Assembly: GCF_900143535.1 (NCBI RefSeq)
Contig: NZ_FRFA01000003.1
Span: forward strand, 186,001-250,000
Length of the DNA stretch: 64,000 nt
Direction: 5' to 3'
Origin: Tateyamaria sp. Alg231-49
GTDB lineage: Bacteria > Pseudomonadota > Alphaproteobacteria > Rhodobacterales > Rhodobacteraceae
Every line of letters starts with the position of its first letter. Position 1 is the first letter of the stretch. The position numbers were made by a program, and so were the translations under genes. Below the pieces are notes generated by a model. That model searched no databases, was not told the origin of the DNA, and worked only from the letters and a program-made list of their open reading frames with translations. Below, in pieces: positions 2,998-61,060 of the stretch.

Positions 2998-4061
2998 ATA
3001 TCGCCTTCTTCGCCCCCCTCAAACCGCCAACCCACCCAGTCCCCTCAGGTGATCGGGCGATGGCGCGGGCGTTGATGGCCGCTCTTGAGGCGGGCGGGCA
3101 GACCGTGACGCTGACCTCTGAACTGAGACTGTTTGACGGGCGCGGCGACACCGCTCAACAAGACAGGTTTTTCGAATTAGCCCGCCAGGAAACCGCACGG
3201 ATATTGGCCAGCCCTACTGCAAAGGATTGGCGCGTCTGGCTGACCTATCACAACTACTACAAGGCCCCCGACCTGATCGGCCCCGTCGTTGCGCGCGCCT
3301 TGGACATTCCCTACATCCTCATCGAAAGCAGTCGGGCGCGCAAACGCCTCATTGGGCCTTGGGCGCGCTTTGCAGAGCAAGCCGAAGCGGCCAGCGACGC
3401 AGCGCACACCATTTTCTATATGACCATGCGCGATTCCGAAGCTCTGATCCGGGACGCGCCAAAGGCGCAGGCCCTGCGCCACCTGCCCCCATTTCTGGCC
3501 CGCCCGGATCTGCCGCCCGCCAGCAGCCTGACCGGCCCCATGCTCAGCGTCGGCATGATGCGACCGGGCGACAAACTCGCCTCCTACACGTTGATCGCGC
3601 AAGCCCTTGCCGACCTACCCACAACGACGGATTGGCGCATGGACATCGCAGGCGATGGACCAGAACGGGCCGAAGTTGCAGAGATGATGGCCCCGTTCGG
3701 GGACCGCGTGCGCCTGCACGGGCTACTGGATACCGACGCCCTCTCAGATCTTTACACGCAAGCCAGCCTGCTCGTGTGGCCCGGCGTGAACGAAGCGTTC
3801 GGCATCAACTATCTAGAGGCGCAGGCGGCGGGCATACCTGTCGTTGCACAGGACCGCCCGGGCGTGCGCGACGTCGTATTTGCGCCGATGTGCCGGGTCG
3901 ACGCGGGACCCGCCGCATTGGCCGACGCAATGCAGAATTTCATCACTGATCCTGATGCACGCCGCAGCATCGGCACCCGCGGACGCATACGCATCGGCAC
4001 GCATCATCTGCTGGGAGCCGCCACAGAAACCCTGCTGGATACGATTGAGGGACTAACATGA
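2994..4061 (+). CDS. Glycosyltransferase family 4 protein, second copy type
   Basis: A 355-residue GT4-like protein. It starts with NIAFFAPLKPPTHPVPSGDRAMARAL, a common start for alphaproteobacterial GT4 enzymes. The C-terminal half contains SVGMMRPGDKLASYTLIAQAL, LLVWPGVNEAFGINYLEAQAAG and PVVAQDRPGVRDV, with the E-x7-E-like donor motif (NEAFGINYLE). It is only distantly similar to the preceding GT4, so the two probably transfer different sugars. It is coupled to both neighbours by four-base overlaps. Confidence 0.82.
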   Translation: MNIAFFAPLKPPTHPVPSGDRAMARALMAALEAGGQTVTLTSELRLFDGRGDTAQQDRFFELARQETARILASPTAKDWRVWLTYHNYYKAPDLIGPVVARALDIPYILIESSRARKRLIGPWARFAEQAEAASDAAHTIFYMTMRDSEALIRDAPKAQALRHLPPFLARPDLPPASSLTGPMLSVGMMRPGDKLASYTLIAQALADLPTTTDWRMDIAGDGPERAEVAEMMAPFGDRVRLHGLLDTDALSDLYTQASLLVWPGVNEAFGINYLEAQAAGIPVVAQDRPGVRDVVFAPMCRVDAGPAALADAMQNFITDPDARRSIGTRGRIRIGTHHLLGAATETLLDTIEGLT

Positions 4062-57560: not shown

Positions 57561-57699
57561 GGCTGGGCGCACCCCGCCAGCCCAAAGCCGCGCAACGCCA
57601 GTCTCCGCGTCGCGGCATTCCCAAAAGCAGACATCCATCGGGCTAAAAAGTGGATTGTTCACCAAGTTCAGACGCTCACAAAACTCACCATTAGGCGCA

Positions 57700-59475
57700 T
57701 CATTCTTTCCGCCAACGACTTATGACATCCCCAAAAGTGAATTCGCGCCACGGTTCTTGCCATTCTTTGTGAAAGCGAACGCTTTGGGAATGTGGTTCGG
57801 GATTCGGCATCGGCATTTGGACAACTGCCGGCAATAATACAGCATCTCCAACAACGACGCATTCACCAGGAGCAAGATTAGGCAAAATGTCTGTAATGCC
57901 GCTTGAGTTGTCTGGGAATAGCCGCTTCACATAGTTCTGGTCGGTATTGTTGGTCAACCGAAGCGCCAAAAAATTGTTGCATTGCGCGAAGATAGTCTCC
58001 GAGACCTCCGACGGTCGCTGGCTCACAACCATCAAGCTGAGACCGTATTTTCTTCCTTCCTTTGCAATGCGCTCCAGCGATTTTCTAGAGGAACGATATG
58101 CAGCCTCGTCCCTTTGAGGGATGTAGTTATGAGCTTCCTCGCAGACAAGCATGACTGGTACATCATTCAGTACTTCCTGTCCTTGTCGCAGCTTGGAGTA
58201 GTGGAAACAGAAATCAAAGATCAGTCGAGAAACTAGGCTCACCGTAATACTCAACACTTCAAATGGTATGCCACCTAGGTCGACAATGGTGACATTGGAT
58301 CGATTGAGATAGCCAATGAATTGCTTCATGATTTGCTCAAAGTCTTCGGTTTTTAATTCTTCTCCGTCATCTTTCTCGGCTGGCAGCAGAAATCGTAGGC
58401 GCTTGTCGGAGAGCTTGGTTTCAAGACGCGAGAGGAAGCGATTGAATTCTCCATTAAACGGACCGCTGGTCGCTTTTTCCGCTTTGGCCGTGGATGTCGG
58501 GACAAAAGTACATGAACCTCCGAAGTAATGAGATTTTCGATCTTCGATCAGTGTTCCATCAGAAAGCTTGGGTTTGTTCTCGCCTTCCAGTCGACCGATA
58601 ACTTCACGGTTCATGTTGTCGATGTAACATTTTACCTCCTTGATCGAAAAATAGACCGGTGTGTCGTAAGTCATTTCCTTGATTGCCGAATTGTGTTTTT
58701 CCTTGTTCAGGATAACGGCCTGCTTGAACTGGCTGACTTGATTATGTGAATTCTGTTCGTTGCTCTCTATGAACATACTTTCAAGCTCTTCCGAATTCAT
58801 AAGCCAATACGGCAGAGACAAAGAGTCGATGTCTAATCGATTGAGAGTAAATGTCTGCCCTTCAGAAAGCGTGAATGCATCTGTGTACTCGTCGTGGATA
58901 TCGAACATGACAATGTGAGAGTTGTTCTGTTTTTCGAAATTTGCGTTTGCCCCGTCGGAAATGCCCACCACTTCATGGAGAATTCGAGCGACGGCGCATG
59001 ATTTTCCAGATCCAGTAGACCCCACGATTGCTATGTGTTTGCTAAAGAAGCGGTCTCCATGGACTTTCAGGGGTGTTGTTTTGTTGAGCGAGAGCATTCC
59101 CAGAGGGAATTGGTAGTTGCCATCCTCAGCGAATAATTTGTCTAGCATGTCTTTTTCAGCTGGGTAGGCCGGTTCAGTTGGAACCGGTAGAAGGACGCTA
59201 GACCGCTCAAAGGTCTTGCCGTCAATTAGGGTTCCGACGGCCTGGCATTGAATATGGAACTGCCATTTCGTTTTCTCCTCGACATCTTGTCCCAGGACTC
59301 CCCGAACATTGGTTATCGTCGCGACTGTATAGTCACTGTTTCCTTGCGCGATACGCAAGTAACGCCCGACTTGAAGATCCACTTTGTGTTCCTCGAAAAC
59401 CTGTAAGCCGTCAACAAGGACAATGATCGCTTCAGGGGAGCACGATAGGACCTTACCTATGCTATTCGTAGGCAT
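57700..59475 (-). CDS. HerA-like hexameric ATPase of a three-gene nuclease operon
   Basis: A 591-residue ATPase of the HerA/FtsK superfamily (DUF87). It has an N-terminal HAS-barrel (about 5–65), Walker A GSTGSGKS (152–159), an extended middle insert (about 220–400), Walker B VMLVCEEAH (441–449) and the sensor SQRPSE (485–490). HerA proteins pump DNA or assemble with nucleases; in antiphage systems they pair with DUF4297 or SIR2. Here it overlaps the middle gene by 14 bases. Codon use is AT-rich, unlike clpB and the ParB-like gene on either side, which suggests transfer. Confidence 0.88.
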   Translation of the reverse strand: MPTNSIGKVLSCSPEAIIVLVDGLQVFEEHKVDLQVGRYLRIAQGNSDYTVATITNVRGVLGQDVEEKTKWQFHIQCQAVGTLIDGKTFERSSVLLPVPTEPAYPAEKDMLDKLFAEDGNYQFPLGMLSLNKTTPLKVHGDRFFSKHIAIVGSTGSGKSCAVARILHEVVGISDGANANFEKQNNSHIVMFDIHDEYTDAFTLSEGQTFTLNRLDIDSLSLPYWLMNSEELESMFIESNEQNSHNQVSQFKQAVILNKEKHNSAIKEMTYDTPVYFSIKEVKCYIDNMNREVIGRLEGENKPKLSDGTLIEDRKSHYFGGSCTFVPTSTAKAEKATSGPFNGEFNRFLSRLETKLSDKRLRFLLPAEKDDGEELKTEDFEQIMKQFIGYLNRSNVTIVDLGGIPFEVLSITVSLVSRLIFDFCFHYSKLRQGQEVLNDVPVMLVCEEAHNYIPQRDEAAYRSSRKSLERIAKEGRKYGLSLMVVSQRPSEVSETIFAQCNNFLALRLTNNTDQNYVKRLFPDNSSGITDILPNLAPGECVVVGDAVLLPAVVQMPMPNPEPHSQSVRFHKEWQEPWREFTFGDVISRWRKE

Positions 59476-60109
59476 TACTTACTCCCATGACATACTTCAC
59501 TTCCTTCATCGTGGTGCCAGATAACCGTTCGACGTTTATGTCCTCCGTTCCGAGGCCTTCGCAATCCGGTTCGCCAATCATGAAAAGATCATCGCATTTT
59601 CTGTCGTTCAGGATTTCACCGTGGTCATCGTAGCTCAAAATACGGATACTGAACTCTCGACGGATTTCTCCTCCAGCAGTTTTTGAGACCAACGGTTCGC
59701 GAAAGAAGTAGGCTTCTTCGAATTGTGGCCCGACATAACCGTCTGTTGAGACAATACCTTTCGCGTACAAGCGTGCCTCAATGCCCTGGACTTCATCTCT
59801 CGTTGCGCGGAGGCACAGTATGGGTGTGCGGATATGAGCGGCCTTGAAATGATACTTGCCAATGTAGTCGCTTATGAAAAGAACGACTTCAGCCTCATAG
59901 TCTTCTATACTTGAAGGCTCGATCACAAAATAACGAAGACGCGCGTTCTTATCGAGTTGAACTTTAAGCTGTTTGCGTCTGGCCGCTAGGAGCTTTTCTC
60001 GCGTCTTTAGGGCGAGAGTCCAATGGGAGATGGCCGTTGTTCGGATGGTCTTGAGTTTCGAAAGAAATTCATTTTTGGTTATCTTCCGCTCGGCTTGGTC
60101 GTGCTTCAC
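59462..60109 (-). CDS. Unrecognised middle protein of the nuclease–HerA operon
   Basis: A 215-residue cytosolic protein. The N-terminal 55 residues are strongly basic and helical (KITKNEFLSKLKTIRTTAIS; LAARRKQLKVQLDK). The rest alternates strands and helices (ARLRYFVIEPSSIEDYEAEV; IRREFSIRILSYDDHGEIL). No catalytic motif is evident. Four-base ATGA overlap with the nuclease gene and 14-base overlap with herA make a tight operon. It may be the linker that normally forms the C-terminal part of a longer DUF4297 protein. Confidence 0.7.
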   Translation of the reverse strand: MKHDQAERKITKNEFLSKLKTIRTTAISHWTLALKTREKLLAARRKQLKVQLDKNARLRYFVIEPSSIEDYEAEVVLFISDYIGKYHFKAAHIRTPILCLRATRDEVQGIEARLYAKGIVSTDGYVGPQFEEAYFFREPLVSKTAGGEIRREFSIRILSYDDHGEILNDRKCDDLFMIGEPDCEGLGTEDINVERLSGTTMKEVKYVMGVSNAYE

Positions 60110-60660
60110 ACTGAGCGTAGCTGCACTGCGTTTGGGTAGGCGAGGGTTTCGATGTCCATTACGGCGAACCCGTTGTAGCCCAACTCCACACTGACTTCTG
60201 CAACCAGCTCATCATAGCTTGGCCCAAATTCCATCGTGAATTTTGTTTCAAACTCGTCAAGGTCAACTGACGAAGGTATCGACGGAATGTACCTCTGAAG
60301 ATTTTGGTCCTTGGATGCTATGGCAGCCTTAAAGGTGTCTTTTCCAACGGTGGGGTTCGGTGTTTCGACGCCGGCAAAGTGGGCAAAGAGTATATAGCGA
60401 ATGCTCTCTGTTGGATGGTCTGCAAAATGTTTGAGCATTTGGAGCAGAGGCTTATAAACTGCACTCGCCGTAAACGATGTATTCGTCTCGTGATACTTAC
60501 ATTGGATTGCAGTCGTCGCCTCAGGCGACATTACTTCGATATCCTCAACAATTCCTTCGACCGTAATCGTTTGATCGTTTTCCGCAGTTAGGATTTCTTT
60601 GATCGTCTTATTGAACTGGTACAAAAAACCTTGGATTGTGTAGTCAGCCGTTCGTGGCAT
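60106..60660 (-). CDS. PD-(D/E)xK nuclease-like protein (DUF4297/Cap4-type), first gene of the HerA operon
   Basis: A 184-residue protein. It begins with TADYTIQGFLYQFNKTIKEI and then has EGIVEDIEVMSPEATTAIQC followed by KYHE: acidic residues around Glu35–Asp40 and Gln53-x-Lys55 form an E…D…QxK site as in DUF4297/Cap4 dsDNA nucleases. It is shorter than usual family members, so the remaining part seems to be a separate gene. AGAGGAA precedes ATG 60660. A weak TTGGCG-17-TTTGAT promoter-like pair lies upstream. Confidence 0.75.
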   Translation of the reverse strand: MPRTADYTIQGFLYQFNKTIKEILTAENDQTITVEGIVEDIEVMSPEATTAIQCKYHETNTSFTASAVYKPLLQMLKHFADHPTESIRYILFAHFAGVETPNPTVGKDTFKAAIASKDQNLQRYIPSIPSSVDLDEFETKFTMEFGPSYDELVAEVSVELGYNGFAVMDIETLAYPNAVQLRSV

Positions 60661-61060
60661 GAATTGCTTTTTCCTCTTACCGGCAGCCAGCGCTGACTAA
60701 ACCAATCAAAATCAAATTTAATTTCGTCGCCAAAATGAAGGTAACGAATCTTCCTTAGGTTGAAACTTTCCCGTTCTAATTGCAAGATCAATTCAGTTGG
60801 GTTACCGCGCCGGATGAAAGTCCGCTTCGCCCCGATGCTAACTTTCAAGTTTGTGCCCGCAGCGAATGCCCGCATTCCGCGCGAGGTGTTACACTGCCAA
60901 CGTCCGCTTCGGGCTGAGAGCAGCCAAAATAACCCTCCCAAAAATCACCCCAAACCTTAACAAATCCTAAATTCACCTCTGTAACCCATTGAAGTCTATA
61001 GGGGCGGGGGATGTCCCAGCGTGGGACACCCTTTTTCCGCCCCCATCCGGGGCCCTTAAA
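60661..61060. other. AT-rich to GC-rich intergenic stretch upstream of the nuclease operon
   Basis: About 400 bases between the nuclease gene and the clpB stop, both on the minus strand. Composition changes at about 60800. The first part presumably holds the nuclease promoter. No supported gene was found, but a plus-strand terminator hairpin lies at 61008–61036. Confidence 0.5.
61008..61036 (+). terminator. Orphan rho-independent terminator on the plus strand
   Basis: GGG-A-TGTCCCA (61008–61018) pairs with TGGGACACCC (61022–61031), one bulged A, three-base loop, then TTTTT. It points along the plus strand, where no gene precedes it; both neighbouring genes are on the minus strand. Confidence 0.65.

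Follow-up and report, generated by a model that had tools for sequence, protein, structure and literature searches.

A DUF4297–HerA antiphage operon of Tateyamaria whose effector gene has probably been split by a recent 7-base loss

The window analysed here, a stretch of 64,000 nucleotides from Tateyamaria sp. Alg231-49 (contig NZ_FRFA01000003.1, positions 186,001 to 250,000), contains three consecutive frames on the minus strand, which raise the question of whether they encode a new kind of defence system or a damaged copy of a known one. The first-pass annotation had described them as a small PD-(D/E)xK-like protein, an unrecognised protein and a HerA ATPase, and had proposed a three-component variant of the nuclease–HerA antiphage pairs. 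The layout that it reported is real: the coordinates of the open frames were reproduced, frame A overlaps frame B by 4 bases and frame B overlaps herA by 14 bases, and the setting is indeed AT-rich, with a GC content of 0.475 at 57700–60660 against 0.585 for the whole window (Table 1). No flanking repeats of at least 14 bases were found to bracket the AT-rich island. On the evidence presented below, the locus very probably represents a two-gene antiphage operon of the DUF4297–HerA type that was acquired horizontally and whose effector gene has recently lost 7 bases, the resulting frameshift splitting it in two. This reading would remove a false lead, since what appears to the eye as a three-gene defence system would be a broken member of a known two-gene pair.

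Table 1. Coordinates of the features discussed in the text (positions of the window, unless another locus is named)
Feature	Coordinates	Strand	Remarks
Frame A (N-terminal DUF4297 fragment)	60106–60660	minus	184 aa
Frame B (C-terminal DUF4297 fragment)	59462–60109	minus	215 aa; GTG start overlapping the upstream TGA
herA	57700–59475	minus	591 aa, open frame; HAS barrel by homology, RecA-like motor
Frameshift site	60106–60127	minus	net 7-base loss relative to intact homologues; gap placement varies between alignments
CCCAAAC (pattern X XXY YYZ)	60130–60136	minus	in frame; the TGA stop lies 21 bases downstream
AT-rich interval (likely cargo slot)	57564–60947		between the ParB-like gene and clpB
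Cargo protein (600 aa) encoded in a congener	L148, 532–2331	minus	no Pfam, PADLOC or NCBIfam match at 0.01

Identity of the three frames

Profile searches assigned both small frames to the same family. NF042945 (NCBIfam, 400 positions), a curated model of an antiphage DUF4297 protein with a cut-off of 300 bits that neither half reaches alone, matched frame A with its positions 1–186 (3.9e-32, 111.7 bits) and frame B with its positions 194–338 (5.4e-12, 45.4 bits), and the DUF4297 model of PADLOC did the same (positions 2–178, 4.2e-28, and 197–341, 1.3e-10). Because consecutive segments of both models are matched, frames A and B are the halves of one protein; their lengths (184 + 215 aa) add up to that of an intact DUF4297, about 400 aa. 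Judged by these matches, frame B is the second half of a DUF4297 nuclease-effector and not a third component, and the view of the middle frame as an unrecognised independent gene is not confirmed. Membership of frame B in another family was also considered, as Pfam gave no match and PHROG only one at 0.25, and was rejected, because the DUF4297 profiles account for the frame; a middle protein from a family unrelated to defence, the outcome which the first-pass annotation had held against its own reading, is likewise not what the profiles indicate. Frame A exhibits the features of the N-terminal Cap4-like PD-(D/E)xK nuclease, including the motif residues E35, E39, D40, Q53 and K55, which are invariant across the 42 rows of our alignment, in accord with the initial description of the small protein; its similarity to the Pfam family Cap4_nuclease stays below threshold (0.011). 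What the window lacks is the nuclease and the HerA-binding C-terminal domain in a single polypeptide. No second DUF4297 of this kind was found elsewhere in the genome.

The third frame is a HerA homolog, as annotated originally. It was matched by NF042944 (3.7e-184, 613.7 bits, short of the curated cut-off of 850), by the HerA model of PADLOC (1.9e-171) and by Pfam DUF87 (9.8e-30), and it matches the HerA chains 9c1m chain M (2.6e-225), 8ziq chain M (7.9e-213) and 8xau (2.2e-130) of the PDB. The translation contains the stretches GSTGSGKS and LVCEEAH, which we take to be the intact Walker motifs. Thus, a HerA-type ATPase with a HAS barrel, predicted from full-length homology, adjoins the effector gene, and the assignment of the locus to the DUF4297–HerA antiphage systems finds support in the NCBIfam, PADLOC and PDB matches alike. 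The nearest plasmid homologs of this HerA come from Methylotuvimicrobium (73.9% identity), Pantoea (69.6%), Peribacillus (60.8%), Sphingobium (56.7%) and Agrobacterium (54.9%), and the plasmid relatives of this branch are annotated merely as ATP-binding proteins. HerA is also similar to phrog_7035, a phage family of unassigned function (5e-74), and to proteins of three phage records (27.5–30.4% identity). Despite these matches, an interpretation of the locus as phage genes was rejected, as the neighbours inspected (clpB and the ParB-like gene, within 50–64 kb of the window) look non-phage.

The break compared with intact relatives

The closest relative among the best 80 of 133 loci found, L126 from an uncultured Roseobacter sp., encodes DUF4297 in one open frame of 401 aa, followed by herA with an identical 14-base overlap. 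At the protein level it is 84.5% identical to frame A, 86% to frame B and, over the 459 residues up to the end of its contig, 87% to the window HerA. At the DNA level (blastn) the identity amounts to 81.3% over 2643 aligned bases, and the sole indel in the aligned coding DNA, which excludes the last part of herA because L126 ends inside that gene, falls where frames A and B meet, with 7 bases missing from the window; one further gap, of a single base, lies upstream of the start. In an alignment of five sequences the 7-base gap is unique to the window. Three codons past the loss the reading now meets a TGA, and the GTG that overlaps this stop opens frame B, so that the split can be explained by a single frameshifting loss of 7 bases. 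As a result, translation of DUF4297 would stop after 184 residues, and for the remaining 215 aa to be produced, as a polypeptide of its own, ribosomes would have to reinitiate at the overlapping GTG.

Could this arrangement be a working one? According to such a reading, translation is coupled from stop to start at GTGA and both halves join HerA in a functional complex of three polypeptides. It is consistent with the catalytic residues and Walker motifs being present, with both halves being open and with the four-base overlap of stop and start. However, an overlap of this kind arises easily by accident. When 7-base losses were simulated in eight intact homologs, at 600 positions per homolog, exactly 4 bases of overlap resulted in 0.5, 8.7, 21.3, 28.0, 28.7, 29.8, 36.8 and 57.3% of the cases (about 21% for L126). 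Since random losses often produce it, the overlap is no sign of an evolved operon or of design, and we dropped it as evidence for an operon. Moreover, none of the relatives examined has the same split (see below), and we therefore regard the coupled, three-polypeptide effector as very unlikely.

Another way to retain function would be ribosomal slipping by -1 at CCCAAAC, yielding a low level of full-length DUF4297, two residues shorter than that of L126. The heptamer stands in the right frame, and about 33 open codons precede the GTG in the downstream frame. Yet the identical heptamer is found in the intact L126, so it requires no regulatory reason, and probably it merely represents the codons of the conserved YPN motif. 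A stimulatory structure was sought in the RNA at 60040–60135 and rejected, as this region folds no better than its shuffled versions (z = -0.71; 49 of 200 shuffles at least as good). Slipping at this site must be rated as highly improbable.

Amino-acid replacements were counted on both branches, window versus L126, with five outgroups for the effector and three for HerA. The counts are 5 v 4 for frame A (18 unpolarised), 5 v 12 for frame B (12 unpolarised) and 31 v 10 for herA (19 unpolarised), with two-sided p-values of 0.33 for frames A and B together and 0.0015 for herA. The lack of surplus replacement in either half implies that the loss is very recent, that the halves are still selected, or that the assembly is wrong; the test does not separate these options, of which a very recent loss is the most economical. 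Under the last option the organism would possess a normal, unbroken pair, for which a draft of 39 contigs leaves room. The rating of the genome as 99.98% complete with 0.02% contamination speaks against such an error, as does the gap itself, since base-calling errors do not typically remove 7 bases where no homopolymer is present, even if neither argument is decisive; we consider an error of assembly unlikely.

Within herA, the comparison with L126 revealed a separate peculiarity. Identity is about 82–90% across DUF4297 and the initial ~175 bases of herA, and drops near window position ~59300 to 74–80% of the DNA in the next 1200 bases, though the HerA proteins are 87% identical; the dS values are 0.76, 0.40 and saturated. 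The drop suggests recombination within herA near this position.

A neighbourhood survey addressed whether the split recurs. Scanning of genome contigs with a five-row alignment of plasmid effectors found 133 relatives, the best 80 of which were kept (L060–L139); by their titles they span many phyla. In 78 of these best 80 a single DUF4297 frame runs without a stop over the whole match. The exceptions, L120 (stops near codons 243–262) and L133 (frame change past residue ~108 of its second half), are both interrupted elsewhere and hence repeat no break of the window type, and the three-frame layout of the window occurs in 0 of the 80. It is likewise absent from the 19 plasmid records that match the L126 protein, each of which aligns as one piece spanning the break (in 15 of the 19, 80% or more of the query is covered). 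In the five regions opened around these nearest plasmid homologs, herA is preceded by a single gene of 392–403 aa, annotated as a hypothetical protein, the product of which aligns end to end with frame A and then frame B. Draws of 385 genomes from the class and 398 from the phylum added one and two further matches, respectively, to that of the window's own genome, none with an internal stop (G858, one of these, shares its match coordinates with L071, so that the two are probably a single record). Among the relatives examined, the split is thus seen only in the genome of the window, and as no other relative shares it, a three-component nuclease–middle–HerA system is rejected. Of the split-nuclease reading this much holds: what is normally joined to the nuclease is encoded here as a frame of its own, although not, it seems, by design. 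In the literature searched, by titles and abstract openings and with subscription journals and preprints outside the search, we found no description of a split DUF4297.

Damage in DUF4297–HerA operons is not rare: herA is interrupted, by a frame-or-stop criterion, in 7 of the 74 loci among the best 80 of 133 in which it is present and uncut by the locus end (one of the seven, L105, lies near a contig end). Together with the effector interruptions (2 of these 80), these counts provide a data point on damage in self-killing defence operons, although some of the interruptions in relatives may be assembly errors in MAGs. Two loci with an effector were found in IMG/VR; one (L159) is open and the other (L160) is rearranged. 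In the latter, from position 4001 of its contig, some 79 N-terminal residues of DUF4297 continue without a frame change into HerA at its Walker A region, after which stops follow, and our reading of the sequence is that of a putative internal deletion remnant. As a separate observation, in 3 of the 7 plasmid regions opened (Methylotuvimicrobium, Sphingobium and Pseudosulfitobacter; L033, L036 and L039) the DUF4297–HerA pair adjoins a gene for a DNA repair exonuclease followed by a large gene, annotated as YhaN family, hypothetical or AAA, which in our reading is SbcCD-like.

The genomic slot beside clpB

A DNA search of 19 congeners detected the DUF4297–HerA locus in none of them, which disposes of its explanation as part of the gene core; clpB itself was detected in each of the 20 genomes searched within the genus, including that of the window. 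The ParB-like gene bounds a different interval beside clpB in five of the 19 congener slices (L140, L144, L148, L151 and L153). The remaining 14, which have no ParB-like match, are uninformative, because 11 of the 19 slices contain stretches of N and two reach just 3775 and 484 bases. The contents of the five intervals are an AAA_15 (OLD/AriA-like) ATPase; a NACHT protein (Pfam 4.4e-11, no PADLOC match); a 600-aa protein; an ABC-F gene with an unassigned 519-aa gene; and no ORF above 200 aa. Near its C-terminus the 600-aa protein displays the stretch RERNDIVHSG, which to us recalls the HEPN ribonuclease motif. The differing contents support a horizontal, defence-like cargo at this site. The stretch from the ParB-like gene to clpB is thus likely a defence cargo slot, and such a slot is indicated for this genus.

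Position of the break and relation to known systems

A model of the intact L126 protein was built with AlphaFold2 (42 rows, mean pLDDT 91.3, pTM 0.87). The break falls after about residue 181, inside the predicted helix 167–186. The domain boundary of the E. coli DUF4297, given as G224 in a passage of PMC11291478, maps in our reading of the alignment to about residue 222 of L126, i.e. the break lies some 40 residues ahead of the boundary and not at it. Being in the middle of a helix and before the boundary, it truncates the nuclease-side domain and leaves the last helices of this domain on the HerA-binding fragment.

In intact systems, a HerA hexamer carries twelve DUF4297 subunits, stacked as two layers on its HAS barrels and bound via their C-terminal domains; both the ATPase and the nuclease are switched on by assembly, and the infected cell dies. 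According to passages of PMC11291478 and PMC12198126, DUF4297 touches the HAS domain with its C-terminal domain, ATPase and double-strand DNA nuclease become active upon assembly, members of the family protect against phages with a nuclease that is active only in complex with HerA, and mutations of the interface severely affect complex formation and impair protection. By analogy with these complexes, a nuclease fragment untethered from the HerA-binding domain should escape recruitment to HerA. With the break inside a nuclease-side helix and the two parts no longer covalently joined, the window copy would have lost its defence activity, and we infer that it is inactive; its layout has the appearance of damage rather than of design. 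The position of the break in mid-helix, away from the linker, also speaks against a working split effector. That a natural two-piece DUF4297 still works, its halves assembling on HerA by way of stop-start coupling or slight -1 slipping, is very improbable. If it were true, the nuclease activity would perhaps be weaker and therefore safer, and a gene fission would have been caught at its start.

Comparison of the L126 model with known structures (Foldseek) gave 9c1m and 8ziq as the best PDB matches and retrieved by fold also the Cap4-like 9nxx and 6vm6. Among known systems, SIR2–HerA (Nezha-type) resembles the window pair in combining a HerA motor with a separate effector; no SIR2 family, and hence no SIR2 NADase effector, appeared among the Pfam, PADLOC, NCBIfam and PHROG matches of the window proteins. 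The Lamassu LmuA and Cap4 nucleases have the Cap4-like nuclease in common with it, but the similarity to LmuA (PADLOC, 1.8e-7) is weaker than that to DUF4297, and their partner proteins differ from those of DUF4297–HerA. The E. coli DUF4297–HerA system (An et al. 2024; 8xav, 8zgi), as described in a passage of PMC11291478, has the same two-gene architecture and domains. It is more distant from the window pair, as can be seen from the score of its HerA (8xau, see above), from the match between L126 and its effector (8xav, 2.6e-23) and from the NCBIfam cut-offs that the window proteins do not reach. The nearest solved kin of the window pair are the DUF4297–HerA (HerA-DUF) antiphage complexes 8ziq/8zir/8zit and 9c1m/9c5x, with effector matches to L126 of 1.9e-77 (9c1m) and 2.3e-68 (8ziq). 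The Agrobacterium locus, the effector of which is the 8ziq protein by its letters, exhibits the gene order of the window; in complexes of the 8ziq and 9c1m type the effector is one polypeptide, whereas in the window it is encoded in two frames.
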